NCBI GenBank assembly: GCA_021209875.1
Contig: JAGYVD010000002.1
Coordinates: 372,001 to 436,000, forward strand
Source: Rosellinia necatrix
Taxonomy: Eukaryota; Ascomycota; Sordariomycetes; Xylariales; Xylariaceae
Length of the DNA: 64,000 nt
Reading direction: 5' to 3'
Shown piece by piece: positions 9,611-37,510 of the stretch. A program made the translations under genes and the position numbers. Numbering within the stretch: position 1 is the stretch's first letter; each line of letters starts with the position of its first letter. The notes beneath the pieces were generated by a model. The model saw nothing but the letters and a program-made list of their open reading frames with translations, made no database searches and was not told where the DNA came from.

Positions 9611-9702
9611 CCCCTTTGAGGTTCAGACCCTTTGCTTCAAGGGATTGTCCTCGGCCCTTCCAGTCGTGGCATTGTTAGACGTACCTTCGATTATCCTCCG
9701 CC

Positions 9703-11668
9703 ATGTTGTCTCTGACCACTGCTCTGTTCGTCACAGCGGCTTCGGCCCGGCTGATGGACAGCCTGCCGTCCGTTCCCAAGGGATGGACTCAGCTTCGGCC
9801 CGCTGCTCTGAGCGAGCCGATCACGCTCAAAGTCGCCCTCCCGCAGCAACATGCCAGCGAATTGGAGCAGGCCGTCATTGACATGTCGACTCCAGGACAT
9901 GCCAGCTACGGGAAGCACATGAGCCGCCTCGAGCTCCGGTCCTACACTGCCCCGACAACCGAGGCTGTTTCTTCCGTGGTGAGCTGGCTTGGAGGCAGCA
10001 GCATCAAGTCCACGGTCGATAACGACTGGATCACCTTCTCTACCACGGTAGAGAAGGCGAATGCGCTGCTAAATACCACGTTTGCGTGGTACCAGTACGA
10101 GAATGGAGGCGGCCCGAAGCTTCGGACGCTCGACTACAGCGTGCCCGATGAGCTGGCAGGCAGCATTGACCTGATCCAGCCGACTACCCGATTCGGCCAG
10201 CTTGGCGCGCGGAAGTCGACCATCTTTGACATGCATATCCTCCCCGACGACGCAGAGTTCAAGGTCGACGCCACCAGCGCCGCCGCCGCCGACTGCAACG
10301 TCAACCAGATTACCCCGGCTTGCCTCAAGTCGCTGTACAACATCAACTACAAGCCTACTGCGAGCGGGAATCTTGTGGCCTTCGCCTCCTACCTCGAGGA
10401 GTATGCTAGGTATTCAGATCTGGCTTCGTTCGAGTCCAGGTGGCTGCCGACCGCTACCGGACAGAACTTCACCGTTCAGCTCGTCAACGGTGGACTAAAC
10501 AACCAGAACAGCAACAGCGACAGTGGTATGTTTTGGAGCTCCCATTATCCTGTAATTTCAACCCCCGCTAATTAGCCGCAGGCGAGGCGAACTTGGATAT
10601 TCAGTATATCCTGGGTGTTAGCGCCCCAATTCCCATCCTCGAATACAGCACCGGTGGCCGAGGGTAAGTAGACGTTGCCAATCGAGTCCCGGGTCGCAGC
10701 TGTGCTAACTAACATGACCAGCCCTCTCGTCCCCACCCAGGATGAGCCCGGCCCGTCATCCAACGAGCCGTACCTAGAGTTCTTAACCTACCTCTTGGCC
10801 CAGCCCGACTCTGCGCTCCCGCAGACTCTCTCCACTTCATACGGCGAAGAGGAGCAGAGCGTGCCGGCAGAGTATGCGCTCAAGGTGTGCAACATGTTCA
10901 TGCAGCTGGGCGCCCGTGGCGTCAGCGTCTGTAAGTGATCCATCCTTTTGGGAATCTTGTCCCCCCCAACCCTCCCTCCCCGTTAGTTATCCCAGCCCCG
11001 AGATTTCGATGCGCTGACCGGTGCGGCGGTTCATAGTGTTCTCCTCCGGCGACTCCGGTCCGGGAGACTCGTGCGTCCGCGTAACGGACGGCGCGCCGTA
11101 CTTCCAGCCGACGTTCCCCGGCGCCTGCCCCTATATCACCTCGGTCGGCGCCACGCGCGGCGTGAGCCCCGAGGCGGCGGTGAGCTTCTCGAGCGGCGGG
11201 TTCAGCACGCTGCACGCGCGCCCGTCGTGGCAGAACAGCGCCGTCAGCACGTACCTGGGCTCGATCGGCAAGACGTACGCGGCGTACTTCAACGCGTCGA
11301 ACCGGGGGTTCCCGGACGTGGCGACGCAGGGCGCGTCGTTCGCCGTCGTCGACAAGGGCCGCAACGCGCTCCTGTCGGGCACCAGCGCGTCGTCGCCGGT
11401 GTTCGCGGGCGTCGTGGCCCTCCTCAACGCCGCGCGCAAGTCGCAGGGCCTCGCCCCGCTCGGCTTCCTCAACCCCTTCCTCTACGCCAACGCGGCCGCC
11501 TTCACCGACGTCCAGACCGGCGCCGGCGTCGGCTGCTCCTCCAACTCGGCCTTCCGCAACGGCGCCCGCTGGAACGCCACCGCCGGCTGGGACCCCGTCA
11601 CCGGCCTCGGCACCCCGCTCTTCGATAAGCTGCTGGCCGCGGCGGCGCCCGGTGTCAAGAACCAGTAG
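9703..11668 (+). CDS. Secreted tripeptidyl peptidase, S53 sedolisin family
   Basis: An acid serine peptidase that removes tripeptides from N-termini, secreted as a zymogen. Exons are 9703-10525, 10582-10663, 10722-10930 and 11037-11668, giving 581 residues, typical for fungal sedolisins. A signal peptide ([15 protein letters not shown]) is followed by a pro-kumamolisin prodomain to about residue 195 and then the catalytic domain. Family catalytic residues are visible: E276 and D280 in EANLDIQY, the oxyanion Asp in FSSGDSG (about D377), and the nucleophile S488 in [12 protein letters not shown]. The C-terminus keeps the D-rich calcium-site region ([11 protein letters not shown]). The frame is continuous across all introns. 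A TATA-like element lies 112 bp upstream. Role inferred: extracellular protein digestion, though an N-terminal trimming peptidase for secreted peptides is also conceivable. Confidence 0.93.
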
Positions 11669-12149
11669 GTCGGCGGTGGTGGTAGGGTAGGCCGACGGTT
11701 CGTTATATATAAATAGATAAATAAATAAATATCGTTTTGGAGCAGCACTTGCCTTCGGGGGGTTTACGTCTCCGTATTATATATAGTGTATGTTGGCGCT
11801 TCGTATTGAGCATTATTACATCGCTTAAGATAGGACGTCTTGAAGAATTTTCCTATCCATCTATTAAATAACGTGATGATTACGCAAGGCGGACTAAGGT
11901 ACCTGACAAGCTTATTATGGAACTATAAACTTAGGATAACTAAGCATAAAATGATTAAAGCTCAAGGTTTAGTAGTGGAATTCCATCCACTATAAGAATG
12001 ATTGACGTTTGTTTTAGGGGCTCCTCCTCCTAGCGCATGTGCTACACTCATTGCTTGGATGTATATATATCACGACTCTGACTTTATCGGCTTGGCTATC
12101 AATGAACTCACGACGTTTGCACAAAACCTCTCCAGACTACGCGTCAGAC
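11669..12149. other. Intergenic region between convergent genes
   Basis: The 3' flanks of the S53 peptidase (plus) and the FAD monooxygenase (minus). An AATAAATAAATAAAT stretch near 11711-11731 could serve as the polyadenylation region of the peptidase. I see no gene. Confidence 0.6.
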
Positions 12150-13975
12150 CTAGTCCCATTCGCCCTCCCCCAGCTCGACCGGCTTCCCATCCCTGACGCC
12201 CTCTATGATCTCGTCGATATTCCACGGCTTATACCGGTACCCCTCAGGATAGTTAGGGGGCACGGTGTCGACCTCGTCGAACGGGACGCCGCGCTTGATG
12301 GTGTCCGCCATGGCAGCGTAGTGGTCGTACGCGTACCTCTCCGGGTCGTGCCTCCAGACCCAGCCCGGCAGCATGGGCTGCGCGCGCTTGTAGTCGGCCC
12401 TGACCTCGTCCCAGTCCGTGTCCTGCAGCAGCTCGGCGTTGGCGAACCCGAGCTTCTGCGCGCAGGCGCAGCGGACGAAACGCAGGCGGACGTGCGTCCG
12501 GACCGATAGCGGGATGGCCTCCTCCTCCTCCTCCTCCTCCTCCTTCTCCTCCTTCTCCTCCTTCTCCTCCTTCCCCCCGCCGGCGCCGCTGGCGCCGATC
12601 TGCAGACACGACGCCAGCGACACGGCGTCCTCGATCGCCTGCGTCGCCCCGTTGCCCGACGCCGGCAGGAACGAGTGCGCCGCGTCCCCGATCTGCACCA
12701 CCCGCCCCCCCGCCGAGCACCACGACGGCTGCGGGTTGCGCCAGAACAGCTCGAAGTTGAGGATCGTCCGGGCCGGCGTCAGCCTCACCAGCTCCTTGAA
12801 GACGGGCGCCCACGGCACGGGCCCGACGCCCTTGTCCATGTTGCCGAGCACCTCGTCGGACTCGACCGTGTGCGTCCAGCTCTCTTCTTCGGATCCGGTG
12901 ACCTTCCGCGGTTGGGTGTTACGTTAAAGGGATGCAATGGGATGGGTTTTTGGGGGGAGAGAGAGAGGATCTTACGTCATGATTCATAATCCAGATGATG
13001 GTTCCCGGTCGGGTCAGAGCTAACGCGTATGTCCCTGGACTATGAATGAAATGTTAAAAAAAAAAAAAAGTAACGCCGGATAGAGTGTAATTTGATAGGG
13101 GGAGAGGGAGGGAGGGAGGGGGGAAAGGGGGGGTGCCACGCAAGACTCACCCTAAGAAGGTGCGGATCATGGGCTCGTCGTTATTCTCCCCGGCCATGCG
13201 GCCGAAGAACTCCTTCACTTCGGCGTTCCCGTCCAGGTGCTTCGAATCGAAGGCTGCCCTCCACATCGCCCTACCCGAGCTTCTCGCCCTCACCTCCCCG
13301 CCGACGAGTCTCTGGCTCTTGGAGCCCACGCCATCGGCGGCGATGACGACGTCCGCCTCGAAGCGCTCGCCCCGGTCCGTGATGGCGACCGCCTTCCGGC
13401 GCGATTCGTCCTCGGCGTAGTCGACCACCTTCTTCCCGAACTGGATCGGCACGCCGAGCTTCCCCACCTGGCGCACGAACATCTCGTACACCAGGGGCCG
13501 CATCTGGAACGTCCCCGGCGGGGTGTTCGGGTCCATGCCGGCCCGGCGAAGCCGGTCCGAGACCTTCATGGGGGGGATCGTGCGCTCCCCGGTGTGCTTG
13601 AAGGTCTCCATCCACGCGTCGCTCATGGAGATCTTCTCATACTCGTCGAGCAGCTCCGGCCAGTGCCGGAAGAACTGTATGGCGCTGTGACCCATGAAGT
13701 ACATGTCCCCTAGGGATTTCAAACAAGTTAGAGAGAGAGAAAGAGAGGGAGAGAGGCTTTTCTGCCAAGAGTCGGGGCGTTTGCGTAGACCGCCACCCAC
13801 CTGCCGTGTTGATGTCGTTCATGCGCTCAAGCATGCGTACGTTGTGGCCCTTGCGGACGCATTCGATCGACGCCGTCAAGCCCGCAAGACCCGTGCCCAC
13901 GATCAAGACATCAATGCCCGTCGGCGGGTACGACCCAACGGGTTTGGCCTCGGCATCAGTATAAACAGAACCCAT
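12150..13975 (-). CDS. FAD-dependent aromatic-ring monooxygenase (salicylate hydroxylase-like)
   Basis: A class A flavoprotein monooxygenase of the kind that hydroxylates phenolic or polyketide aromatics with NAD(P)H and O2. Exons are 13975-13801, 13709-13151, 13039-12976 and 12902-12150, giving 516 residues. Motifs: the Rossmann GxGxxG near the N-terminus (VLIVGTGLAGLTAS), the DG motif (VVIAADGVGSKSQ) and the GD motif that binds the FAD ribityl chain (IGDAAHSFLPASGNGATQAI). Between the GD region and the C-terminal helix is a Lys/Glu insert encoded by a (GAG)n-type repeat, which I do not expect in homologues. The start sits directly behind a poly-T/A tract; an upstream in-frame ATG (14143) would add Lys-rich sequence and is less likely. 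It is the first of five oxidative genes reaching to 22.0 kb. The substrate is unknown. Confidence 0.88.
12518..12572. repeat. CTC/CTT trinucleotide repeat inside the monooxygenase CDS
   Basis: On the coding (minus) strand this is a GAG/AAG run encoding a Lys-Glu stretch then poly-Glu in the monooxygenase. It stays in frame and contains no splice signals. Confidence 0.85.
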
Positions 13976-15361
13976 TTTGTTTTTTTTGTTTTTTTTTTTT
14001 TCCCTTTGGCTGTATCGACGCGACGATGTTTGGGAGAAGAGTTCGGGACAAGAGTTCGGGACAAGAGAATGAGACGCAGGGGAAGAGTAGATTCGGGATA
14101 TATCTGACGAGGCGAGCGAAACAAGCTCGAGGATATGATGCAACGGCTATGGCCGATGATGTAGGAGAGATCATGCATCCCATTACTGCGTATTGACGTA
14201 CATAAATAAGAATCGGCTCGGAGGGGGGTTCTCGTGTTCCATGAACCGTAATTTGGTTATACAAAGCTGTAATCAATGTTATTCCTCTACATATCCCTTG
14301 TGTTGCCGTTGTATGGGAATCCATCGTCCCCCCCCCCCTCGCAGGCCCCTTGCGAAAGGAATTGTATTAGGAGGGCGGTAATAAGCAAACAGGCGGTTGA
14401 AGCCCTCGAGATCAAGTTGTTGACGCGGCCGTAATACACTACTGTCGATATCCCTGGTTTGTAATGCGTTTAAGTTCAACACGCGTTTCCGCGTACATTC
14501 GAGATGCATCATGTTGCGTGGGCATTCATACTTATCTAGTAGACACGTGATTCTAGAGCACTGTTGTTACCATAATTGAGCGTTAAGTCACGTCCAGCTG
14601 GTAGCAGTTCACTATTTTCCATATTATAGTTTAACAACGCAGAACAAGGTTAACTCGGTAGACTACTGCAACGTCCAAAATGGGAATAATCTGGCGAGGT
14701 CGAGGAGGCCTGCTCCAGATTCAGTTATTTTATCGTTGTTGTTAAGAAGAGGAGGGGAAAAAAAAAAAATGCTAACCTCAGTCAACTATGCGACCATTTT
14801 GCAGTTAATGGCGTTGATATCAGAGCCTCAGCTGTGCGATAAAACTCACGCTTGGCTACCCAGACACTTATGATCGCATCCTTATAGCATCCAAAATGTT
14901 TGCGTAGACGCACTCGATCTCCATTTAATGCATCAAACATATTGTAGCCGCCGAGACTCCTCTTGGTTGACGTTTCTCTTTTGATCTTACCCTCCTCTAA
15001 GCTTCAATATCGCGTTGGCCAATGACACGAGGGGCTGTCATCATGACTGAAATCCTGGGCACCCACCAAGACTCGGCATGTCTGGCCGAACTATTCCGTC
15101 CCTCCCTCTCTGGAAAATGAAAACATAGAAACTACGTACGACGGGCGGATACGGGATTCACACTCCGGCGTTGATCGGCTGGCTCCTGCCCTACCTGCAG
15201 GTGTGCCTGTAATGTTTGTATATCTTGTCTGTGTCAGATGGGATTGTGCGTTAAGATCTCTTGGAAGTCTGTTCATTGTTATCTAGCACAAAGTTGTCGG
15301 TTTCGCAAGTTTTCTTGCCCCTTCCTCTCTTTTATGCGGTTTGTTGAGACAGGCGCTGGCC
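13976..15361. other. Divergent intergenic region, monooxygenase / P450
   Basis: The shared upstream region of the FAD monooxygenase (minus) and the P450 (plus). It holds a T-rich tract just before the monooxygenase start (13978-14001), a 15-bp direct repeat GAGTTCGGGACAAGA near 14039-14067, a C10 run at 14330-14339 and an A run near 14759. No gene is seen. Confidence 0.6.
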
Positions 15362-17569
15362 ATGCATTACCTTACAGTTATCGCCTTGGTGACTACCTTC
15401 GTTGGTCTTGGTCTGCTCCGCCTGTACGCGTTGTTCCGGCAGGTCAATTCTCCCAGGAAGATACCGGGCCCAACGCTCATCCCGTTCCTTGGACGCATCC
15501 ATGACCTCCCGATCAATTCCATGTGGCTGAAGCTCCATGAATGGGGGAACCTGTGTATGTAGAACTCCATGGCCTTCACGCGCAGGATGACTGGATAGGC
15601 GTCTATAAGATTCTAGCCTCCGTAAGCGGCTTGATCATCAACGCCAGCCACCTACCCATCTCTTAAGCCCTGCCGTTTCATGCTTTCGGATGACTGTACT
15701 GACAGGGAACACAGACAGTGGGTCGAATGGGTTTTACATGACGGAAATCCTCAGCGTCCCGATCCTCGTTATCACGGATGAATCCGTAGCTGAAGAGCTC
15801 CTCGTTAGGAGGGCGAAGCACAACTCTGACCGCCCCATGATAAGATCCATAGTTGACTCCAAAAGCACTCATGGTTCAATGGAATACTTACCCTTGATGG
15901 GGAAGAACCGTAAGACTTATCGTATTCCCACCACAACTGTCACTGATTATCAACCAGAATACTGGGCCCGCCAACGTCGCTTAACGCACTCCTATCTGAC
16001 GGAAGCAAGCAACTCGCATTACTATGGCGTGATGAACCACGAGGCAAAAAGATGGCTGGCGAGGTTGATAGAGAACCCCGACGACTTCCAGTTCAGCCTC
16101 GAAGACATGGCGTCGAAAGTGATGTGTCAGTTGACGTGGGACGACCCGAGCCTCAGCGAGTACTGCACAAAGAGCGCCTGGGGGCTGCTGACTCAGATGT
16201 CGCCTGCCGGGCCCATCACCAACGTCTTGACGCCGCTGTGGCACCTCCCCGAGATGGTGAATCCATGGAAACGGGCGGAGCGCAGACGCCACGACGAGCA
16301 GCAGGCCTGGTGGATGGAACGGCTGGCCCATACCCGCTCGAAGATGATGATGGGCCTGCAGAGGCCTTGCTTCGCGCGGCAGTACCTGGAGAGGGGGCAC
16401 AAGCGCTCCAACATCTCGGGCGATTACGAGGCATCTTGCGTCGTCGGCATGATAGCCCTCGTCGGCATCTTTACCGTCGCCGGACCCCTCTCCTACTGGC
16501 TGGTCTCCATGGTACACCACCCACAGTGGCAGGCCATAGTGCAGAATGAGATTGACGAGGTATGCGAAGGCCGCATGCCGACCCTCGAAGACGCGCCGAG
16601 GTTGCCGAAATTGAGAGCGTGTATAAAAGAGACTATGAGATGGAGGCCGAATGTCCCTACAGGTAACCGACACTTACACTTACACTTAAGACTTACACGT
16701 ACTATACGACCTAGCGTAAGGAACCCTGTATGACTGACCTGAGAGGTAGGCGTTGCTCACGAGATGGAAGCCGATGATATATATCAGGGCTACTTCCTCC
16801 AAAAGGGGACACGAATTCTCCCGCTTGATTGGTAAGTTGAAAGCTACCTACCCTCTCGAAGTTATTCACACAAAGAAAACAAAAAGGAAAAAAGAAAAAG
16901 GAAAGAAAAAGGAAAGAAAAAGGAAAGAAAAGAAAGGAAAAGTAAAAAAAAAAAAAAAAAAAAAAGAGAAATAAAAAAAAGACTCTTTAGTTAACGATGA
17001 TAATCAGGTCATTCCTCCGGAACCCAATCAAGTACCCAGACCCGGAGAATTTCCGGCCGGAGAGGTGGCTCGAGCCGGGGTGGCCGACGTACCAGGAGCC
17101 GCTGACGCAGTTCCCGACGATCAAGGGCCTGACGTCGTTCGGCTGGGGCCAACGGCAGTGCCTGGGGCAGACGCTGACGCAGGACGAGCTCGTGGTGGCG
17201 TGCGGGGCGCTGAGCTGGTGCTTCGACCTGAAGCCGAAGCGGGACGCGGCCACGGGGCTCGACCTGCCGGTGCCGGCCGACAAGTCCAACTCGCTGCTCA
17301 TCATCAAGCCCGACCCGTTCCGGATGGCCTTCGAGCCCCGCAGCGCCGCCCGCCGGGAGCTGGCCCTGGGCCTGTGGGCCGAGTCCGACGCCCGCGACAA
17401 GAGGGAGCGGTACGAGTTCGCGAAGCGCGCCACCACCATCACTACTGCCACCATCAGTACTGCCACCATCACTACTACCACCACTGCCGCCGAGGAGGAG
17501 GAGGAGGAGGAGGAGAAGGAGAAGGAGAAGGAGAAATCGAGGCCCGGAGGAGATATGAACGATGCCTAA
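15362..17569 (+). CDS. Cytochrome P450 (O-methylsterigmatocystin oxidoreductase-like type)
   Basis: A membrane-anchored heme-thiolate monooxygenase. Exons: 15362-15554, 15715-15909, 15958-16662, 16750-16831 and 17008-17569, giving 578 residues. The 48-bp segment 15910-15957 (GTAAGA...CCAG) is in frame and stop-free, but removing it restores the usual 'YLPLMGKN-YWARQRRLTH' reading, so I treat it as an intron. An N-terminal anchor helix is followed by the Pro hinge (PRKIPGPTLIPFLG), the I-helix region (VAGPLSYWLVSMVHHPQWQ), ExxR (KETMRWR), PERF-type (ENFRPERW) and the heme motif FGWGQRQCLGQ with Cys about 443. The I-helix lacks a classical (A/G)GxxT. The C-terminus carries a Thr-rich then poly-Glu/Lys tail encoded by trinucleotide repeats. 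The OrdA-like assignment rests on overall look only. Confidence 0.9.
16881..16982 (+). repeat. Polypurine (A/G) tract in P450 intron
   Basis: About 100 nt made almost entirely of A and G (only two T), built from AAAGGAAAG-type units and ending in long A runs. It fills most of the 176-bp intron between exons 4 and 5, leaving only about 25 nt to the acceptor. Confidence 0.9.
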
Positions 17570-17722
17570 AAATCCAACTACAATGGGATGAATGCACTGG
17601 GGTTTAGGGCAGATTGGGACGTACGTTAGGCGAATGATTTATATTGCGATAAAGAATGGCGTTACTGGAGGCTTAGTTTTCTATTCTTTTGGGGTTCGAT
17701 TTCAATCCCCCCCACTCGTTGA

Positions 17723-17780
17723 CTATTGACTTTATAGAGATAAGTTATAATGGTGCTATTGACTTTATAGAGATAAGTTA
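17723..17780. repeat. 25-bp direct repeat, 33-bp period
   Basis: A unit beginning CTATTGACTTTATAGAG and ending ATAAGTTA occurs twice without mismatch; the TGATAAGTTATAATGGTG that follows repeats the tail again. It lies about 155 bp downstream of the P450 stop codon. Confidence 0.85.
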
Positions 17781-18355
17781 TGCTGATAAGTTATAATGGT
17801 GGTATCGCTCGAGTTACGGAGAGAATTCCAAGGGCGTTGTTCTGTTCTATTTCGCAATGAAGTACTACCGTCTGATTATTCCTTCTAGCCCTTAAAATCC
17901 TGCCTTATAGGCTTTTGTGAATAAAACATGTTGATTCTATTATACCTAGTTAAATGAGAAATCACGCATGATGAGAGCATCTGGCCATTGGGAGATGGAA
18001 GATCTACGCCGATACCATCGGACCGGTAACACCGTCGCGCCCGACTAGCACCATGGCATTCTAGAACCCGTACCTTAAGAGTGTGAAGAAGGCTTCTAGA
18101 AACACGGCAGTACACTCTTCCCCCATTTTTCTAATTTTGTATGATCAAGCCTGGAAGGCGCTAGCTAGCCTTTTGGGTCACCACCTACCCCTGAGAAAAC
18201 GGAAGGTGGAGGTCGTGAGATACACGAGGTCACACATGGTACAGGGTCCCAGGTAATGCTGTATTGAGACCGAATCGCGCATGAATCTTGCATAAATCAC
18301 GTTTTGGCCACGAGGTCGGGCCGACGATACAGGGTTTTCCCGAGATCGCTATCGA

Positions 18356-18381
18356 GGGGGGGTAAGGGGGGTAAGGGGGGG
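18356..18381 (+). repeat. Three G tracts separated by TAA (G-quadruplex candidate)
   Basis: G7-TAA-G6-TAA-G7. Because each tract has six or more G, one tract could donate two runs, so an intramolecular quadruplex is possible. It lies about 360 bp upstream of the DUF1772 gene. Confidence 0.6.
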
Positions 18382-18742
18382 TTCGGAACCGGCGCTAAGA
18401 GCTCGTTCCTGACCTCTTACAAACCTAACTGCTGTGTCGGGGTCCTACCTACCTTGCCTACCCTACCTACCTTAGGGTTCAAAATGACCTAATGTATACA
18501 TATAGATCATAGATCATACGATCGGAGAGGCCGCGAATTCGGGGAATGTTGCACGGCAGGAGCGAGCCAACGGTCACACTCATGGACGAAAGCGCGGGGT
18601 GACTTGGCTCGATGCATTTATGACCATCACAATCCCGATACTTCAATTTAGCGCATGTGAATAATTCTCCATTTACGGAATCCTTTCGCCATTACGAGTG
18701 CTGTGAATAAGCGGAGTCGTCAAGATATATACACGTTGTAAA

Positions 18743-19340
18743 ATGGCGGGTATACACGACGTTGTGGTCGGAACCACGATCGCATGTTCCTTCATACTCT
18801 TCGGTAAGTGTGCCGACACCTCAGCCAGGCGGCAGTGATGTAATTGCATGTATTAATAAATCCGGCCAAACAGGCAATGCCATCACCCAATCCTTCATGG
18901 GCGTGCCGGCGCTACTAGTAGACTTTCCGCCCCCATCATCTCCCGACCACGCCGCCCGAGCACGGCTTCTTGGGAGACAGTGGCCGACGTTCTGGAAGGT
19001 GGGCAATGTCTTCTTCCGGCCCATTAGCACCTTAGGTATCTTCGGCTACGGATATACAGCGTGGGTCGTCTCATCCCAAGGTGCCGGAAGCAGACTCGGC
19101 GGCGGGGATTGGAGGCTGTATGCTGCCTCGGCTATGTGCCATCTCATCACTGTCGTGCACTCCGCCATCAACATGCAGCCAATCAACGAGAAACTAGACG
19201 CCCTCAAGGAGCCCAAGGGAAATGTTGACAATGAGAAGGCGGAGAGCTACGCCCGCCAGTGGATTAAGTTTAATACCGTGCGTCTCATCACCCCGGTCAT
19301 CGCTGGTACTTTGGCACTCTCCCAGGTTCTGAGACGTTGA
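18743..19340 (+). CDS. DUF1772 (anthrone oxygenase-type) small membrane protein
   Basis: A small integral membrane protein of the DUF1772 family, which includes HypC-type anthrone oxidases acting on polyketide anthrones. Exon 1 is 18743-18803 and exon 2 is 18874-19340 (phase 1, intron 70 bp), giving 175 residues. Hydrophobic segments: residues 5-20 (VVVGTTIACSFILFG), around 75-92 (FGYGYTAWVVSS), about 106-121 (AASAMCHLITVVHSAIN) and the C-terminal VRLITPVIAGTLALSQVL. The sequence keeps the family pattern of Trp, Asn and Arg after helix 1 (GRQWPTFWKVGNVFFRP). It lies between the P450 and the SnoaL-like gene, which favours a tailoring role, but the family is wider than anthrone oxidation and the substrate is unknown. 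Confidence 0.85.
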
Positions 19341-27039: not shown

Positions 27040-28982
27040 ATGAGGTTCCTCCGTGCAGCTCTACTACTCGCGCCCTTCGCGGCCGGTGTCCAAGTCGACA
27101 GGCGGGGGCGACAGACCTACGATGGCTACAAGGTCTTCCGTGTCGTGACCAATGGAGACGCCACCGAGTTCGAGGCCCAGCTTGAGTCCCTGTCCGCAAT
27201 TGAGCTCTCCCGTAACCGTGGGCACATTGATGCGCAGCACTTCGATATCGCTGTGCCCCCCGAGAGCCTCGACGCGTTCGGGGCCCTCAACTACGAGGCC
27301 GAGACATTGACAGAGGACCTGGGCGCGGATATTGCCCTGGAAGGAGAGCTGCAGCCGTTCCCAGGTCAGCCTACGCGGGATACGAGCCCTTGTATACGAA
27401 GCCAACTAACTGAGATCCAGGCTTGGAGACAAGCGTACCGAATGGCAATGCGAAGGCTGCCGCCGCTCTACCAAGCTTCTCGTGGTTCAGCGCATACCAC
27501 CCGTATGCCGACCACTTGACGTTCTTGCAGAGCTTGCAGGCCTCGTTCCCTTCCAACTCGGAGCTGATCACTGCCGGCACATCCTTCGAAGGCAGAGCGA
27601 TCCAGGGTATTCATCTCTGGGGTAGCGGCGGCAAGGGTTCTAAGCCGGCTATCTACTACCACGGCAATGTCCATGCTCGTGAATGGATCACATCAATGGT
27701 TAGCTGTCTGCTTTCTCCTCTGGGTTGCACGAGCTAACACTGTGTGTAGACTGTCGAGTACATCACGTATCAATTAATTAACAACTACAACAACGATACT
27801 GCTGTCAAGGCCGTCCTAGACAACTATGATTTCTACATCCTACCCATTGTTAACCCCGACGGTAGGCCTAACCAACACTCACAATAATGTAATCAACACT
27901 AAACATGGTGAACAGGATTTGTCTACACCCAAACTTCAACCCGCTTGTGGCGCAAGAACCGACAGACACGCTCCGGCACTACTGCTGTTGGTACGGACGT
28001 AAACAGGAACTGGTAAGTACCGCGCTAATATTCAGATGGGTAGCAGAACTTGGATAATAACTACCTCTACAGGCCGTATAAATGGGATGGCGCAGGCTCT
28101 TCAACCAGCCCAGGTTCAGGTAAGCTGCGCCCTTTGGCGATTTTTAGGGGGGCTGTTTCGTCCTTTTATTATTGCCTCCTGACAGCAGTCTGAAACGTCG
28201 CTAACCTAGGCACTAGAAACGTAAGCTACCTTGACCGATGCGACAAATTCCCTGTGCACTATTGTTGCGAGGATAGTGTATAATGGATTTGAAAACCCCA
28301 ACAGATCGTGAAGTGTGGCAAATGGCTGATAAAATATCACAGTTATCGTGGACAGGCACCCGGTGATACCCCTGAGAACACTGGAATCCGCAGTATGATC
28401 AAATATACAACCCCAAAAAATTCATTGCCATGAATACTAATGAGAATTTTCAGCTTTCGGTGATAAGCTTGGAAGCGGAAAGGGCATCAAGCTTTACATT
28501 GACTGGCACAGCTATGGCCAATACATCTTGACGTAAGTCATTCATTAGCTAAGCCTATTACACATGTATTACATGCTGACATAAAAACCCCCAGCCCTTA
28601 CGGCTACTCCTGCTCAGCCCAGGCCCCCAACCAGTCTAAGCAGAACACGCTGGCCAGAAATGTCGGAACGGCCATTGCCGCAGTCCACGGAACCCGATTC
28701 ACCACGGGGCAGACGTGCTCTACGCTCTACGCCACAGCCGGTGGCAGCAACGATTATTTTACCGACGTGACTCCAGCAGAACTCGCGTAAGTTACCACGA
28801 CCCCCTTGTACCTTTCCAAGACGAAAATATAGCCGGATGGCGTGCTGATATGGGTGTATAATAGCTGGGCCATCGAGCTCCGAGACACGGGCACCTACGG
28901 CTTCACTCTCCCCGCTAACCAGATTATCGCAACCGGCGAGGAGTCTTGGGCCGGCCAGAAATACCTGTGGGCAAACTTTTAA
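27040..28982 (+). CDS. Secreted zinc carboxypeptidase, M14A family
   Basis: An A/B-type metallocarboxypeptidase that removes C-terminal residues, secreted as a proenzyme. Exons: 27040-27364, 27421-27698, 27750-27861, 27916-28012, 28073-28119, 28210-28220 (11 nt, inferred), 28305-28392, 28454-28532, 28595-28786 and 28865-28982, giving 448 residues. Signal peptide [17 protein letters not shown]; activation propeptide to about 110. Zinc ligands are H193 and E196 (HAREW) and H338 (DWHSYGQ). Substrate residues lie in NPDGF, LWRKNR and DVNRNW. The catalytic Glu is about E414 in [10 protein letters not shown]. The micro-exon at 28210-28220 is the only way I found to keep frame between SSTSPGSG and SYRGQAPGD, so this stretch is uncertain. 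It converges on the RiPP precursor gene, ending 419 bp away, which makes it a candidate for trimming core peptides. Confidence 0.88.
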
Positions 28983-29401: not shown

Positions 29402-30066
29402 TCAGCCCAAAATATCCCTCGGGTCCGCAGCAGCAATGGCGTCCGCATAAGGGCTCTTAGGCTCCCGCTTCTCGACCGCGGCGGCGGCCTCCTCCTCGCT
29501 GGCCTCAAAGGGGTACCTGAAGACGATGGCGTCCGCGTCGCGTTTCTCGACAGCGTCTCCCTCCTCCTCCTCCTCCCCTGCCCCCTTCCCCTGCGCGACT
29601 CTGAAGATGGGGTACCGGAACGTAATAGCGTCGCTGGAGCGCTTCGCGACCCCGCCCTCCGCGGCCCCCTCGGTGGAAGCCTTGAAGGGGTACCGGAACG
29701 TGATGGCGTCGGTGCCGCGCCTCTCGACATCCCCGCCTTCGTCGGCGCCCTGGGCGACTCGGAAGATGGGATACCGGAACGTGATGGCGTCGGTGCCGCG
29801 TTTCTCGACATCTCCCCCTTCATCCTCCCCTTGGGCGACTCTGAAAATGGGGTACCGGAACGTGATGGCGTCGCTGGAGCGCTTATCTGATTTGGGGAAT
29901 CGTTGGCGGCGGTTAGCATATCGCGGTTCTCTTCTCCCGTGAGGTAAGCTAACAATGGGCACGGGGGGTAATATGGCGGTGGTATCTTACCAGCATCGAG
30001 AGGTAGTGCGATAGCCGAGCCGGCTAGCACCAGCAGGAGCATGTTCTTGATCGTGGAGGAAACCAT
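29402..30066 (-). CDS. Candidate RiPP precursor: secreted repeat peptide with Kex2 sites and DAI(T/V)FRYP cores
   Basis: Exon 1 is 30066-29991 and exon 2 is 29886-29402, joined by a 104-bp phase-1 intron, giving 186 residues. A signal peptide (MVSSTIKNMLLLVLAGSAIA) is followed by six segments bounded by dibasic sites at 27-28, 54-55, 81-82 (RR), 107-108, 140-141 and 165-166. Five segments carry a core: SSDAITFRYPIFRVAQG (29-45 and 109-125), GTDAITFRYPIFRVAQG (56-72), GTDAITFRYPFKAS (83-96) and DADAIVFRYPFEAS (142-155). Each is followed by an acidic Glu/Gly/Ala spacer ending before the next dibasic pair. The last segment (167-186) has SPYADAIAAADP, a diverged copy. This is the architecture of dikaritin precursors such as ustiloxin UstA: secretion, Kex2 cutting, aromatic cores. 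Neighbours are a UstYa-family oxidase (divergent) and a carboxypeptidase (convergent). A sex-pheromone precursor is the main alternative; the UstYa neighbour argues against it. Product and chemistry are inferred. Confidence 0.85.
29444..29883 (-). repeat. Five-fold coding repeat of the RiPP core
   Basis: The DNA repeats along with the peptide. The words reading GACGCCATCACGTTCCGGTA on the coding strand recur with one or two synonymous changes in four copies, and a more diverged copy (ATC GTC TTC AGG) lies nearest the 3' end. Repeat length varies (27, 27, 26, 33 and 25 codons including the dibasic pair) because the acidic spacers differ. Confidence 0.88.
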
Positions 30067-30170
30067 GATGAGTGTAGGAAGTGTGGTTAAAATTGGTTGA
30101 GTGAGGATGAAGCGGTGGTTGTTCTGGCTTGCTATGATCGGCGCGACTGAAACTCTCAGAGACGAGTCGT

Positions 30171-30187
30171 GGCCAACCCTCTTATAG
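30171..30187 (-). promoter_or_regulatory. TATA-like element of the RiPP precursor gene
   Basis: CTATAAGAGGGTTGGCC on the minus strand starts 121 bp before the precursor ATG. It matches the element before the S53 peptidase gene except for a 3-nt gap. Confidence 0.45.
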
Positions 30188-30303
30188 CTGAAGACTGAAG
30201 CGTGGGCTCGTCAAACCTAACCGCCGGCATCGCTTCCCGACGTCGTCTACCTTGGCCATCACGCGATACTTGCCCCGAGAAACGAAGGGATACTCTTGGC
30301 CGC

Positions 30304-30313
30304 CGGTAAGCCG
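30304..30313. promoter_or_regulatory. CGG-N4-CCG inverted repeat, copy 1
   Basis: CGGTAAGCCG in the divergent promoter between the RiPP precursor and the UstYa gene. Inverted CGG triplets are the usual target form of fungal Zn2Cys6 regulators. Binding is inferred. Confidence 0.35.
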
Positions 30314-30332
30314 TCCATCGCGAGACGTCACT

Positions 30333-30342
30333 CGGTGATCCG
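30333..30342. promoter_or_regulatory. CGG-N4-CCG inverted repeat, copy 2
   Basis: CGGTGATCCG, same triplets and spacing as copy 1, starting 29 bp further on (just under three helical turns). Confidence 0.35.
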
Positions 30343-30858
30343 ATTCGCATGGAAACCGCCATGATGAAAACGGAAGGTCCCATGTCGTCATGATCTAAAC
30401 GATCGTATAGCATCGACTTATGCGTCCGTGGATTTGAGTTTTCACGACATCTCGTCGCATTAAGTCAGCCTCACGATCCACGACGTCACGCAGAATGCTA
30501 CTGGGAGAGTCGAAGTACTGGCGAGTCGTGTGTCTCTGTCCTATACAGATGGGATGCTCGAGATCTGGGCGCATATGTAGGTCGACCAGGACAGACCATC
30601 TCCGGTTCCCAAAACAGCGACGTGCAACCTATAGTCTCGATACTAGATCTCATCTGACACCATCGCGTAGTGAGTCGGGTTTGATACAAGACACGATGAC
30701 TGAGCAGGAACAGCACCTAAGTCGGAGTTTCATTTCGTCCGGCTATATCAACGACGCCGGTCTAGGCCTTCGTGGCCTCGCCAATGAAAACCCCTGCATC
30801 CTTCCCCAACCCTATCCAATATTCGGGACGATTCAGCTCCCAGGGCCCTGGGTGGCTA

Positions 30859-30869
30859 TCGGAGACCGA
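30859..30869. promoter_or_regulatory. TCGG-N3-CCGA palindrome
   Basis: TCGGAGACCGA in the same divergent promoter, nearer the UstYa gene. The form TCGGN3CCGA is known as a target of Zn2Cys6 regulators of other fungal metabolite clusters (GliZ-type). Relevance here is inferred. Confidence 0.3.
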
Positions 30870-31241
30870 GCGTCTTACAAGCTTTGAATCTCACTCGGTT
30901 ACGATGCGCCAACACCCATCTCACGATCACGCAGACTATAGACTCGGTAACACAATGAGATTCACCGCTACGGGTCCTCTACTTGACCCGCCAAGTCTAT
31001 CGCCACATTGTGTATATCCCGAGAAAGACGAATTGCATGCATATAGGACTTACGTATTTGTATTTCTAATCGTACGACACATTGCGAGCGAATAATGGGG
31101 ACGAGAGGTAGCGATATTAGCGAGTAATCGTGCGCGGGGAGAAGATGGCTGACTAGCTAGGTCAAAGTAGTGGAATATAACGAATTCCCGTCCGTCCAGA
31201 GGGGCTTCCTTCCTCTTGTCGGGCAGCCACCATCACCCATC

Positions 31242-32477
31242 ATGTTCAAGATTTTCAATTCCGTCTATTCCCCCCTCACTTCACGAAGCGAGTTGCCCGG
31301 TTCTGATGAGGAACATTGCGGCTTTCTTGATGGGAAACACTACCACCACGATGGCTCATCAAACCCCAAGCCTGATCGCCGAAGCCTCATACCACACTAC
31401 TCCATCGCCGTCCCTTGGGTCTTAGCAATACTCAACTTCGGGCTCTTTCTAAACCAATACCTGAGGCACCCCAGCGACCTCGAATGTGCCCGCCGTCTAA
31501 GTCCATACTGTATGTTACCAACCATCCAACGACGCGAGTCGACTAACGAAACGTGTCCAGCTCCCGCCATCGACGCCGGCGTCATCGAGTACTACGACAC
31601 GAACTTCCAAAACGCATTCGGGGGCAGGTCGGAGTATATGGGCCCGCCGACGCCCGAGCTCGAAGAGCGATGGGACGACCTCTGGAGCCGTAAGACGATC
31701 TCCCACGACGGGCAGCAGGGCCGTCTTTCTTCTTCTTCTTCTTCCTCTTCTTCTTCTTCTCTCCTTTTGCTTGACAATTAATATCACGCTGACGCGGGCG
31801 CACGGCAGGCGGCACCATAGAACTCCCGCCCGACGGGCCCGGCAAGCTAAACAAGTCGACGGAGGGCCTCAAGCACGCGCGGGGGGACCCGAACAGGGGC
31901 TACGCGGCGGTGCTCGAGGTCTTCCACCACCTGCACTGTCTGGTACGTCAAACGGCAGGATTTTTGCTCTACCCTACCCTGCCCTGCCCTGCCCTGCCCT
32001 GCCCTGCCTCAACCCAACCCAACCAAAACACCACACCCTGACCAAAAATGCTAACCATTTCCTCTCCCCCCACCTCCCCTCTCTCAGAATCAAATCCGAC
32101 AGTACACGTGGAGAGAGTACTACGCAACGCACATGGCGGGCTGGGTGGCGGCGGATAACCACGGACGGCTGGACCTCGACGTGACGGGCACGGGCACGGA
32201 CCCGGACCACGCGAGCGTAGGCGACCGCATGCACGTGGACCACTGCATCGAGGCGCTGCGGCTGCAGCTCATGTGCGCCGCGGACGTGACGCCGCTGCTG
32301 GTCGAGGTGGACGCGGGGAGCAGCCTCGGGCAGAGGGCCGACTTCGACGTCCACCACCGCTGCAGGCGCTGGGACCGGGTCGCCGCCTGGCAGGACGCGA
32401 ATAGCGTCGAGCGGGAAGAGGCGAGGGAAGAGGGGAGAGAGAGGAGGGGGAGGGGAAAGGGGGATGTCGCACGGTAG
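31242..32477 (+). CDS. UstYa-family (DUF3328) oxidase, RiPP cyclisation/oxidation candidate
   Basis: A membrane-bound protein of the family that cross-links or oxidises aromatic side chains in dikaritin-type peptides. Exons: 31242-31509, 31561-31689, 31809-31942 and 32088-32477 (phases 1, 1, 0), giving 306 residues. A cytosolic N-terminus is followed by one transmembrane helix (YSIAVPWVLAILNFGLFLNQYL) and the family landmarks: SPYSPAIDAGVIEYYDTNFQ, GPPTPELEERWDDLW, GYAAVLEVFHHLHCLNQIRQY with HHLHC at 172-176, and HVDHCIEALRLQLMC with HVDHC at 226-230. Both HxxHC motifs thought to bind metal are intact. The first intron (51 bp) is in frame, but its removal restores the canonical SPYSPA reading. 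The tail is Glu/Arg-rich low complexity. It is divergent from the repeat precursor, the pairing expected for a RiPP locus. Confidence 0.92.
31723..31763. repeat. (TCT)n microsatellite in UstYa intron 2
   Basis: An interrupted TCT/TCC run within the 119-bp intron 31690-31808, acting in effect as an extended pyrimidine tract. Confidence 0.85.
31970..32010. repeat. CCCTG pentanucleotide repeat in UstYa intron 3
   Basis: CTACCCTACCCTGCCCTGCC... continues as at least six CCCTG units inside the 145-bp intron 31943-32087, followed by AACCCAACCCAACC. Confidence 0.85.
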
Positions 32478-33165
32478 GGTGTGATGTGATCTCTCCCTCG
32501 TGTAATATTAGTACTTATAGTACTTATCTACTTGTGAGCTTGGGGGTGGGGGGTTGTGATGATCTCGCTATCAAACTAGTTATAAGCGCAGCGCGTTCAC
32601 TTATACGGGAGAGTTGTATGATGTGCTTGGCAAATGAGTGAGTGAGCAGCAAGCCCGGTAAAACTGCCGGCGGTGATAAAATAACCCCGATATATCCGAT
32701 GGCGCAATTCATGCCAACCGTTGACACCATTGGATTGACTAATCCAGACCTCTGAATTCTTTACCCGGTTGCCAAGCCACTTTCATGAATCCTGACATTT
32801 AGTCAATAACTGTTCTGGGCAAGGAAGCAATATGAAAGGTTTTTAATTAGAACCATAAGTACACCTTTCTTCTGTAGCTTTTAATGCTTGCTAAATTGCT
32901 GGCTTTTCATTTATTGGTGATGATAATTGGAAGCGGATAACTAAGTATATAATTTACGTGGTGAGCTTCAGCTGACAACTAACCCTAAGAGGAAAGAGAC
33001 CGTTGCGGAACCGTTCCAGAAACTACAATTATAGGCCTAGTTTAAACACCGATTGATCATTATCAACACCAACTTAAACTTATGCAACACAGATAGCTTT
33101 CAACCCAAACTCAGAAACAACGAGAAAAGGAAGAAAAAGAAGAGAGAAGAAGAATCCAGGCCAAA
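32478..33165. other. Intergenic region UstYa / 2-hydroxyacid dehydrogenase
   Basis: No gene is seen. It has lower GC than its neighbours. It holds the UstYa 3' flank and the promoter of the downstream gene. Confidence 0.6.
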
Positions 33166-34809
33166 ATGGGGAATATGCTTCCTGAACGCATCCCGGAGGC
33201 GGCGGCCAGCTCCAGCGTGGTGGCCGCTCGAAACAAGGACCTCACCGGCCACAAGCTGCTGATCATAGCGGACCAAGACCTGCCGGATGGGTACCGAGAA
33301 CACCTACGGGAGAAGTTCCCTGGGCTGGAATTCCTACACCTGCGCATCAGGTCGTGGGCGTACGCGACCGGCCCCCTACCGGGACAGATGGACGAGGACT
33401 GGGCCAACGTGACCATTCTCCTGACCGGCATCCGGCTCCCCGCCATCGCGGAGGCCCCCAAGCTGCAGCTCGTGCAGCTGAGCACCGCCGGCGTCAACCA
33501 CGTTCTGGATAAGCCCATCTTCAAGGACACCAAGATCCCGTTCTGCACGGCGAATGGCGTTGCGGGGTAAGAGATGAAGCCCGATCTCGGCATTCGTGTA
33601 ACCTACCTGTATAGCCCGTCGTTCTCCCGTCGTTCTCCCTTTTCTATAGACGGAGGGGGGTGTAGGTTGTCGTTGCTACCAAAGTGAGAGTGGGGATACG
33701 ACGAAGCAAGGAGACATATGAAGCAGATACGGAGAGAGGAAGGACGACAACACGCATGATTTTCACCGTCTTGCACGAGCAGAAACTAATGATACCTCGT
33801 GTCCAGTCCGCCCATCGCCGAATGGGTGATCTGTACCTACCTCGCCTACCAGCACCGCAGTGAGTCTCTTCCCTACCCGGAAATCAGGCGGGGGTAGGAA
33901 TTGTCTGAACATGTTTTTCTAACCAGACGCCTTTCCCGCTCTCCCACCTATCTAGTCCCTCGCTACCTCGACAATATGAAGAAAGGGCTCTGGGAGCATA
34001 GCTGGAACGACATGGACACACTGGACGTGGTCAAGCAGCGGGTGTAAGTAAGGCCAAACAGACAATCAGGAACCCTCTTGACGCAAGGCCCCCCCTACAT
34101 GCCAAAGCGGAGACATAAAATTGAAAAGGGGACGTTACGAGAGACTTTCAGTTTTCTAACCTTTTATTCTCGTTATTTTATAACATATAGCGGGATCCTC
34201 GGCTACGGCAGCATCGGCCGGCAGGTGGCGCGCGTGGCGACGGCGATGGGGATGGAGGTGTACGCGTACACGAACCGTGCGCGGCCGACGCCCGAATCGC
34301 GGCGCGACCGGTCGTACCACCCGCCGGGGCTCGGGGACCCGTCGGGGGCGCTGCCGGCGCGCTGGTTCTCGGGGACCTCGGAGGCGGAGCTCGGCGCGTT
34401 CCTCGGCAGCGGCCTCGACCTGCTCGTCGCCGCGCTGCCGCTGACGCCGCAGACGCGCGGGCTCCTCGGCCGCGCCCAGTTCGAGCGCCTCGCCGCCCCC
34501 CGCCCCGGCGGCCGCGGCGCCTACCTGTGCAACGTCGGCCGCGGCGCCACCGTCGTCACCGACGATCTCATCGCCGCCCTCGACGCCGGCTGGGTCCGTG
34601 GCGCCGCCCTCGACGTCACCGACCCGGAACCACTGCCGCCTGGCCACCCGCTTTGGAAGCAGAAGGATGTCATCGTCACGCCGCACGTGAGCGGGAACTC
34701 GGACAGCTATTACGAGCGTCTGCTGGAGATCCTCGATGTTAACCTGGAGAGGCTGAGCGAGGGGAAGGATGAGTTCTTGAATGAGGTTAGTAGGAAGAGG
34801 GGTTATTAA
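33166..34809 (+). CDS. D-isomer-specific 2-hydroxyacid dehydrogenase
   Basis: An NAD(P)-dependent oxidoreductase that interconverts 2-oxo acids and D-2-hydroxy acids. Exons: 33166-33566, 33807-33859, 33956-34043 and 34191-34809 (phases 2, 1, 2), giving 386 residues, slightly above the family norm because of an N-terminal extension of about 25 residues. The split substrate domain is followed by the Rossmann motif VGILGYGSIGRQ. The catalytic set is visible: Arg in LCNVGRGATV, Glu in DVTDPEPLPPGHP and His in VTPHVSGNSD. After the Rossmann motif, TNRARPTPESRRD contains Arg residues that would suit NADP. It lies downstream of the UstYa gene on the same strand; cluster membership is possible but not shown. 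Confidence 0.9.
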
Positions 34810-35624
34810 AGGGGAGGAAGTCGAGAGGTCGAGAGTGGAATCAATCGGCTGAAGTTTGGTCAGAGCGTATGGCTTGCTGCCTTTGTCATAGCAGCGCGTA
34901 GATGATGCCTACGCTATGTATGCATTGACAAAATAAATGCCAGTGCGCTCTTCAGCCTAGTTATACGTTTATGGGGTATATTTGAAACCACTTTTATGGC
35001 TGGGCAAAGTATTCCGTGATAAATCAGGGCCTGTAGCGACTAGATAGGGAAGTTGTAAGGATGGAGATCTACATAACTACCCAGGTACCTAGTAAGTAAT
35101 TGGCATGGTGTTCACCATAGTAGGTAACCAACCACTCGACATTATGGGTCGTACCTCCCCTACAGGCCGGGTTATACAGTAAGAACTTTAAAGATCTCTA
35201 CATCCCCGACTGTTCGAATAACCCCTTGCACGGTCAAAGTGTCTACTTAGGAAGGCGCCAGACTCCCTCCATTCATATGGGTATATGTGCACAACTCTCT
35301 TTAGTTGAACATCATACCCTTCTATAAGGGAATACCCAGATATCAAGGAGTGCGGGGATAGGCAGCCTCGGCTCATGTGAAGGGTGGTAACACGATCAGT
35401 TGCCTCACCTACCTTCCTACATCGAACCACATAGCCGATCCCTGGTCACCATTCTGTAGTTATTATATATATTTACAGCGATTGATTTTTGATTTCAAAA
35501 AGGAAAAAAAAAAGGGTGGTTGGGGTTATTCGACACAAATGGCCATTGGACAAACTCGTGCCGAGGTAACAAATCGGTAACAAGATATCGCACCTCACGA
35601 CAACCTCGCTTATACTCCGTGACA
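34810..35624. other. Intergenic region
   Basis: Between two genes on the plus strand. No gene is seen. It contains GGTACCTAG-type words (35085-35095) and an A-rich run at 35500-35513 before the next start. Confidence 0.6.
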
Positions 35625-37510
35625 ATGGCAACAGACACATCCGAGACAGCGCAGCAGCAGCAGCAGCAGCAGCAGCAGCCGGAGCCGGTGCTGATCATCG
35701 GCGCGGGGCTGGCGGGGCTGGTGGCGGCGTTCGAGCTGGCAGAGCGCGGGGTGCGGACGGTGGTGGTGGACCAGGAGGGGGAGCAGAACCTCGGGGGCCA
35801 GGCGTTCTGGTCGCTCGGGGGGATCTTCTGCGTGGACTCGGCGGAGCAGCGGCGCATGGGCATCCGGGACAGCCGGGCGCTCGCGCTGCGCGACTGGCTC
35901 GGCTCGGCCGCCTTCGACCGCGAGGGCGCCGAGGACCGCTGGCCGCGCCGCTGGGCCGAGGCCTTCGTCGACTTCGCCGCGGGCGGCATGGAGCGCTACC
36001 TCAAGGCCCGCGGCGCCGGCTTCGTCGCGAGCGTCGGCTGGGCCGAGCGCGGCGACGGCACCGCCGACGGCCACGGCAACTCCGTCCCCCGCTTCCACAT
36101 CACCTGGGGCGCCGGCCCCGAGGTCGTCCGCGTCTTCGCCGAGCCCGTGCGCGCCGCGGAGGGGAAGGGCCTCGTCGAGTTCCGCTTCCGCCACGTGGTC
36201 GACGAGCTGGTGGTCGACGGGGGCTCCGGGAGGGCCGTCGGGGTGCGCGGCCGCGTGCTGGAGCAGGACCCCGTCGAGCGGGGCGCCCGGTCGTCGAGGA
36301 AGGCCGTCGACGCGTTCGAGCTGCGCGGCTCGGCCGTCGTCATAGCCACCGGCGGCATCGGCGGGAACGTCGAGGCCGTCAAGAAGGCCTGGCCCGTCGA
36401 TCGCCTCGGCCCCAAGGTGCCCGAGAACTTCGTCATCGGCGTGCCGGCCCACGTGGACGGGCGCATGATAGACATCGTCGAGTCGGCCGGCGCGAACGTC
36501 ATCAACCGAGACCGGAGTGAGTCACACATCCCATTTCCCAAACCCCATAATCAGTTATCCCAGAAACCCCCAGAAGCAAGCCCTGCTCGAAAACGACGGA
36601 CGCTAATCTCCCCTCCGGGGGCGTGTGTTCGACAGTGTGGCATTACACCGAGGGCCTGCAGAACTGGAACCCGATCTGGCCGGGCCACGGGATCCGGGTG
36701 CTGCCGGCGCCGTCCTCGCTCTGGCTCGACGCCACGGGGGTCCGGCTGCCGCCGTTCCTGTACCCCGGGAGCGACACGCTGGCGACGCTGCGGCACATCT
36801 GCGGCACGGGCCACGACTACACCTGGTTCGTGCTGAACCAGACCATCATCGCGCGCGAGTTCGCGCTCTCCGGGTCCGAGCAGAACCCGGACCTCACGGC
36901 CAAGAGCCTCTGGCAGCTCCTCCTGTCGCGCGTCTTCTCCTCCAAGGGCACCGTCCCCGTCCAGAACTTCCAGAAGCACGGCGCCGACTTCGTCGTCCGC
37001 GACAACCTCGCCGACCTCGTCGCCGGCATGAACGAGCTCGCCCGATCGTCGTCCGTGTCCCGCGGCGGCGGCGCCCCCGCGCCCGTGCTGGACTTCGCCC
37101 GGGTGGCCGAGGTCGTCGCGGCCCGCGACGGCCAGGTCGACAACGCGTTCTGCAAGGACGCGCAGGTCATGCTGATCCGCAACGGCCGCAACTACTGGCC
37201 GGACAGCCGCAGCCGCATCGCGGCGCCGCATCGCCTGCTCGACCCGGCCCACGGCCCCCTCATCGCCGTGCGCATGAACCTGCTGACGCGCAAGACCCTC
37301 GGCGGCGTCGAGACCGACCTCGGCAGCCGCGTCATGCGCCCCGACGGCTCGGCGTTCCCCGGCCTCTACGCCGCCGGCGAGGCCGCCGGCTTCGGCGGCG
37401 GCGGCGTCCACGGCTACAACTCCCTCGAGGGCACCTTCCTCGGCGGCTGCATCTTCTCCGGCCGCGCTGCCGGGATGGCCATCGCCGACGAGGTCTTGGG
37501 CTTGAAGTAA
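35625..37510 (+). CDS. FAD-binding fumarate reductase / 3-ketosteroid dehydrogenase-type flavoprotein
   Basis: A flavoprotein of the FAD_binding_2 family, which reduces or introduces C=C bonds next to carbonyls. Exons are 35625-36516 and 36636-37510 with a 119-bp phase-1 intron, giving 588 residues. The start carries a poly-Gln tract (residues 9-17, CAG repeat), then the dinucleotide motif EPVLIIGAGLAGLVAAFELAE. GGQAFWSLGGIFCVD is the FAD-contact loop of this family. VVIATGGIGGN marks the second FAD contact, and the C-terminal LYAAGEAAGFGGGGVHGYNS and GTFLGGCIFSGRAAG complete the FAD site. The closest look is to fungal and actinobacterial KstD-like or fumarate reductase-like proteins; the substrate is unknown. 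It is same-strand with the 2-hydroxyacid dehydrogenase. Confidence 0.9.
35650..35679. repeat. (CAG)n microsatellite, poly-Gln
   Basis: A nearly pure CAG run at the N-terminus of the flavoprotein gene, encoding nine Gln just before the FAD-binding strand. Confidence 0.9.

Follow-up and report, generated by a model that had tools for sequence, protein, structure and literature searches.

KEX2-processed repeat proteins (KEPs), as defined in a published survey, carry an ER signal peptide and at least three tandem repeats of at least eight residues between KR, KK, RK or RR sites, none above 100 residues (PMC7329392). DUF3328 genes neighbor 1,758 of the 7,878 KEPs in that survey, 1,647 of these in Ascomycota, and they are most numerous immediately beside the KEP gene (PMC7329392). 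Published work defines the DUF3328/UstYa proteins as enzymes that depend on copper; the family member CctR binds two copper ions through a pair of HxxHC motifs, which it requires for activity (PMC12435403). The asperipin-2a cluster of Aspergillus flavus is described as comprising the precursor gene aprA, the UstYa homolog aprY, the reductase aprR and the transporter aprT (PMC6514808). The cross-link of ustiloxin and phomopsin joins Tyr to Ile, residues one and three of the core (PMC7329392), while the ring of victorin is closed via a Phe side chain (PMC9233826). An ustiloxin-like RiPP cluster has been reported in some Hypoxylaceae (PMC8403587).

Here we describe a locus in a 64-kb stretch of Rosellinia necatrix DNA at C2:372001-436000 (the window). 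The locus matches a published class, the UstYa-associated KEX2-processed repeat proteins, which are of the dikaritin precursor type, and has a core sequence of its own. We consider it probable (roughly 0.75) that its repeat protein is a multi-core source of a dikaritin-type ribosomal peptide, secreted and modified by UstYa. As a class the locus is ordinary, given the number of DUF3328-accompanied KEPs in the surveyed Ascomycota.

Precursor gene and its product

The precursor gene lies on the minus strand, with its ATG at 30066 and its stop ending at 29402. The start exon and the repeats are in different frames, and only an intron links them. Its features, in window coordinates, are:

29991..30066, minus strand: exon 1 (ATG and signal-peptide-like segment), 76 nt, with a phase-1 end that three sibling precursors share
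29887..29990, minus strand: predicted intron of 104 nt, with GTAAGA donor, GCTAAC branch-like site and CAG acceptor (sequence model)
29402..29886, minus strand: exon 2 (first KR, five repeats, C-terminal tail and stop), 485 nt (model)
29849..29872, minus strand: core 1, DAITFRYP (probe search and gene model)
29768..29791, minus strand: core 2, DAITFRYP (probe search and gene model)
29687..29710, minus strand: core 3, DAITFRYP (probe search and gene model)
29609..29632, minus strand: core 4, DAITFRYP (probe search and gene model)
29510..29533, minus strand: core 5, DAIVFRYP (position derived from the gene model)

Three alternative splices would also retain all five cores: one keeps the donor at 29990 but uses acceptor 29929, and two pair acceptor 29874 with a donor at 29962 or 29953. 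The splice 29990-29887 is preferred because of its GTAAGA donor, the GCTAAC site, the KR right after the junction and the phase-1 plan of the sibling genes.

The spliced product has 186 residues. Judged by eye, its N-terminus is signal-peptide-like and typical in look (LLLVLAGSAIAL stretch, A-x-A), and the first KR follows soon after (LPLDADKR). The six dibasic sites (five KR and one RR) bound segments of 25, 25, 24, 31 and 23 residues, each containing the core, which reads DAITFRYP in four repeats and DAIVFRYP in one. The spacers C-terminal to FRYP hold 5, 4, 2, 7 and 5 acidic residues in repeats 1 to 5, respectively. A sequence-only reading of this DNA had proposed the same coordinates, six dibasic sites, five repeats and DAI(T/V)FRYP core, all of which the spliced translation reproduces; its acidic spacers correspond to the 2-7 acidic residues counted in each, and the KEX2-type layout that it assigned is borne out by the dibasic sites and repeats. 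With five repeats of 23-31 residues, the protein agrees with the KEP definition in PMC7329392 as to repeats and dibasic sites. A 20-residue tail lies C-terminal to the sixth dibasic site; this tail (EPKSPYADAIAAADPRDILG, window 29405-29464) again contains 'DAI', and is possibly a sixth repeat that has decayed.

UstYa partner, neighboring genes and sibling loci

The genes around the precursor, and the region that separates it from its UstYa partner, are:

31242..32477, plus strand: UstYa gene (PF11807, DUF3328; Pfam match), 306 aa, with exons 31242-31509, 31561-31689, 31809-31942 and 32088-32477 modelled by hand
30067..31241, no strand: divergent region of 1,175 bp between the precursor and UstYa start codons (gene models)
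27040..28982 (approximate), plus strand: M14 zinc carboxypeptidase gene (Pfam match), convergent with the precursor gene
33166..34806 (approximate), plus strand: D-2-hydroxyacid dehydrogenase-like gene (Pfam match only in frame 34048-34806)
35493..37507 (approximate), plus strand: FAD_binding_2 oxidoreductase gene in two frames (Pfam match)

Three exon frames of the UstYa gene pass the Pfam cut-off, so that the UstYa-family neighbor named in the sequence-only reading stands, and it is head-to-head with the precursor. The hand-modelled protein carries the HxxHC(x)nHxxHC arrangement as HHLHC and HVDHC. The divergent region contains no 7- or 8-mer above the count threshold. A few 6-mers exceed expectation there (e.g. 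CTATAG, 4 versus 0.23); CTATAG is a palindrome counted on both strands, and was not taken for a site.

The M14 carboxypeptidase is a possible trimming enzyme, and the D-2-hydroxyacid dehydrogenase-like protein (whose upstream frame, 33097-33567, has no Pfam match) and the FAD_binding_2 oxidoreductase are possible tailoring enzymes. All three were considered as cluster members but are not claimed as such; their families have no match among 10 ORFs, nine from the sibling precursor loci and one from another UstYa locus. Further along, one frame matches a prephenate dehydrogenase dimerization domain, and an RCC1 gene follows (Pfam). Tyrosinase has 22 matched stretches in the genome and none in the window. 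Elsewhere in the window, a second UstYa match (60908-61093, minus strand) is separated from the first by some 29 kb, and the window shows no repeat precursor in the vicinity of this second match. Pro-kumamolisin/S8 peptidase-like and FAD_binding_3 frames, a cytochrome P450 and an anthrone-oxygenase-like frame are clustered at 9679-19337, perhaps forming another metabolic cluster, and a 36-bp unit is repeated 2.1 times with 94% match at 50616-50690.

UstYa has 29 matched stretches in the genome, which were assigned manually to 14 loci. A scan confined to these 14 loci (with flanks of roughly 1.5 to 5 kb per side for those outside the window), looking for segments that recur between dibasic sites, places precursors at four of them, this locus included. 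A looser version of the scan had yielded many low-complexity rows and was tightened, giving 15 rows from 1,277 ORFs. Five rows represent the four precursors (one twice), and the other ten were discarded: some are copies of the precursors in a shifted frame, others low-complexity frames, including four at other places in the window. A shared-4-mer scan of ten loci found only the ESDIDVADAF gene. The three sibling precursors (repeat scan and model) are:

C1, L048, start 4186255: PWPLY(V/A)AKD(A/S/G), seven repeats
C8, L010, start 4729981: (I/V)DVADAF type, eleven repeats, core ESDIDVADAF
C3, L017, start 1775851: DND(D/E)IWLW, eight repeats, core DNDDIWLW

None of these three cores occurs in the literature searched. 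All four precursors have a divergent UstYa match and a modelled exon 1 of 64-76 nt that ends in phase 1 just past the signal-like segment; the C8 precursor gene has an additional second UstYa, which is convergent. That all four pairs are divergent, few cases though these are, argues that the neighborhood described here is not accidental. In a weak tree of the UstYa proteins, based on the final 80 residues in 20 of the 29 matches, precursor linkage, which applies to five rows, requires 5 changes versus a shuffled mean of 4.6 and no branch is starred; the UstYas of the four precursor loci appear not to group together. In the tree input, no second HxxHC was read for L019, L021 and L025; in L025, the DNDDIWLW partner, it is probably split by an intron. 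The nearest paralogs of this locus's UstYa in the tree are C5:1556682 (L014) and C10:262341 (L009), with no repeat precursor in the stretches around them. Near the PWPLY precursor lies a protein with cytochrome b5 and FAD/NAD reductase parts (L048 2760-4175, minus strand), which may merit a look because CctR requires electron input, which is supposed by its authors to come through an accessory protein (PMC12435403).

Proposed route and rival readings

In the proposed route, the chain would enter the ER and be cleaved by KEX2 after its dibasic sites, yielding five peptides of 23 to 31 residues. The copper enzyme UstYa, encoded head-to-head, would oxidatively cross-link side chains inside (D-A-)I-(T/V)-F-R-Y-P, and peptidases would remove the acidic tail and perhaps also Asp-Ala. 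The simplest cross-link would join residues two apart, within Phe-Arg-Tyr or Tyr-Pro-Ile/Phe. The first/third spacing of the ustiloxin and phomopsin cross-link occurs in this core as Ile-x-Phe, Phe-x-Tyr and Tyr-x-(Ile/Phe), and Phe-Arg-Tyr is our first guess because its spacing equals that of the Tyr-Ile pair. Since tyrosinase has no match in the window, an asperipin-like route would fit better than an ustiloxin-like one. Expression, the order of the steps, the site and type of the cross-link, the roles of the neighboring carboxypeptidase, dehydrogenase and FAD enzyme, and bioactivity are what we infer from gene content and known relatives. Among KEPs with DUF3328 neighbors, 65.6% of repeats are reported to contain Tyr, compared with 38.2% for those without (PMC7329392). 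The single KEX2-type P-domain match in the genome also counts in favor of this route. As counterpoints to the dikaritin reading, the sibling core ESDIDVADAF contains neither Tyr nor Trp, tyrosinase is unmatched in the window, the UstYas of precursor loci fail to group in the weak tree, and codon constraint reaches past the core (below).

The repeat array has a Tandem Repeats Finder score of 314. A 24-base core probe, allowing up to 3 mismatches, has four matches in the 49.1-Mb, 12-contig genome, all inside the precursor gene, and a search of the genome with the precursor returned only its own two exons and no second copy. The core is kept at the protein level between copies, and its codons differ mainly at synonymous sites: over eight codons in five copies, pS is 0.33 versus a pN of 0.048 (like the values that follow, uncorrected proportions from few codons). 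The IFRVAQG run after the core in copies 1, 2 and 4 gives a pS of 0.64 and a pN of 0, the seven codons 3' of FRYP in all five copies give 0.56 and 0.44, and the two residues preceding DAI show 21% synonymous and 56% non-synonymous difference. Copies 1 and 2 also agree at the protein level over the eight codons past AQG (pS 0.70, pN 0.08), and the constraint therefore extends beyond the core. This synonymous bias of the core stands against a chance or decayed repeat ORF without a gene, as does the sharing of a 4-mer by five dibasic-bounded segments of the real chain, a level that shuffling the mature chain 20,000 times never attains (at most three segments, reached in 6 shuffles). A GC content of 54%, at which long open frames are numerous on both strands, would favor such an ORF, as would the low-complexity frames elsewhere in the window that also pass the precursor scan (4 rows), but none of 2,629 ORFs from block-shuffled windows passes it, and we find the chance reading barely credible.

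If the array encodes secreted peptides, they might instead be linear signals, released by KEX2 and trimmed by a STE13-type dipeptidyl peptidase that removes two dipeptides, ending in Asp-Ala, to leave I(T/V)FRYP... unmodified, with UstYa serving another substrate or something else. STE13 recognizes X-Ala, and each of the five repeats places Asp-Ala ahead of the remaining core residues (SSDA, GTDA, GTDA, SSDA and DADA). The genome has one match to the P-proprotein domain, the mark of KEX2-type proteases, and two to DPPIV_N, consistent with such processing, and 6,120 of the 7,878 surveyed KEPs are listed without DUF3328 neighbors (PMC7329392). STE13 signatures are described as absent from the precursors of toxic cyclic tetrapeptides and epichloecyclins, and hormone roles have been proposed for KEPs bearing them (PMC6339444). 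The signature (XA or XP after KR) is, however, imperfect here: DA is the second dipeptide in 5/5 repeats and the first in 1/5, the first being SS or GT, neither X-A nor X-P, in the other four. The UstYa gene head-to-head with this precursor and with all three siblings, and the aromatic pair two residues apart within the conserved stretch, also make a linear signal unlikely. An alpha-type mating pheromone precursor would have a similar secretory KEX2 repeat layout, but the chain lacks Cys, Trp and PYGXPXG, and with them both core types described for Ascomycota alpha pheromones (two Cys, of the WC...CW type, or PYGXPXG; PMC6339444). Pheromone KEPs are moreover reported as nearly all lacking DUF3328 neighbors, with three exceptions (PMC7329392), which makes a pheromone highly improbable. 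A search for the genome's own alpha pheromone gave no exact match and, at two mismatches, 56 matches versus 56 for the reversed control; of the four one-mismatch matches, three fall in frames that are 43-48 aa long and contain no more than one KR, and the fourth is among stops. A structural or surface-active repeat protein, whose peptides coat hyphae like Rep1 of Ustilago maydis, has precedent among described KEPs (PMC9769878, PMC6339444). With only eight residues conserved in all copies, acidic spacers and an adjacent UstYa gene, it is quite improbable here.

Significance and comparison with known systems

The preferred reading, a UstYa-modified peptide of the dikaritin kind, agrees with the sequence-only reading in its layout, its UstYa partner and a core string that is not found in the literature searched. 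The class itself is known and widespread; the core may be undescribed. The string FRY is absent from the main texts of PMC7329392, PMC12048977, PMC6339444 and PMC7099791; the core may be listed somewhere outside the literature searched.

To our knowledge, how each UstYa picks its residues is not understood. The Phe/Arg/Tyr core with a single adjacent UstYa provides a clean case for testing residue choice, for which the three sibling pairs in the same genome are ready comparisons. More tentatively, and at clearly less than even odds, the four head-to-head modules may represent a shared gene frame (signal exon, phase-1 intron and repeats) under four unrelated cores (ITFRYP, PWPLYVAKDA, ESDIDVADAF and DNDDIWLW) with non-grouping UstYas. 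They would then form a natural matched set for how fungi fit new cores to one chassis, in which this locus would yield a Phe-Arg-Tyr macrocycle that carries an Arg and comes with either of two tails, one containing IFRVAQG and one lacking it.

Like the ustiloxin and phomopsin precursors, which bear a signal peptide, the protein has repeated cores between KR sites and is accompanied by UstYa (PMC7329392, PMC6514808); its own start is signal-like by eye. It differs from them in its core, DAI(T/V)FRYP rather than Y-x-I-x, in the lack of a tyrosinase match in the window, and in having one adjacent UstYa gene, whereas the ustiloxin and phomopsin clusters have two or five. With victorin and the epichloecyclins it shares a multi-core precursor and, by prediction, KEX2-type processing; the products differ. 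As in the asperipin-2a cluster, a repeat precursor lies beside one UstYa homolog with an oxidoreductase nearby, and the core contains Phe and Tyr (FYYTGY in asperipin; PMC6514808). The four genes described for asperipin-2a include no tyrosinase (PMC6514808), paralleling the window. The two systems differ in that the core I(T/V)FRYP has an Arg and one Tyr, that the dehydrogenase here is of the D-2-hydroxyacid type while aprR is an isoflavone reductase (PMC6514808), and that no counterpart of aprT was found, with no transporter match among the 30 window ORFs scanned. By gene content, asperipin-2a is the nearest described case.
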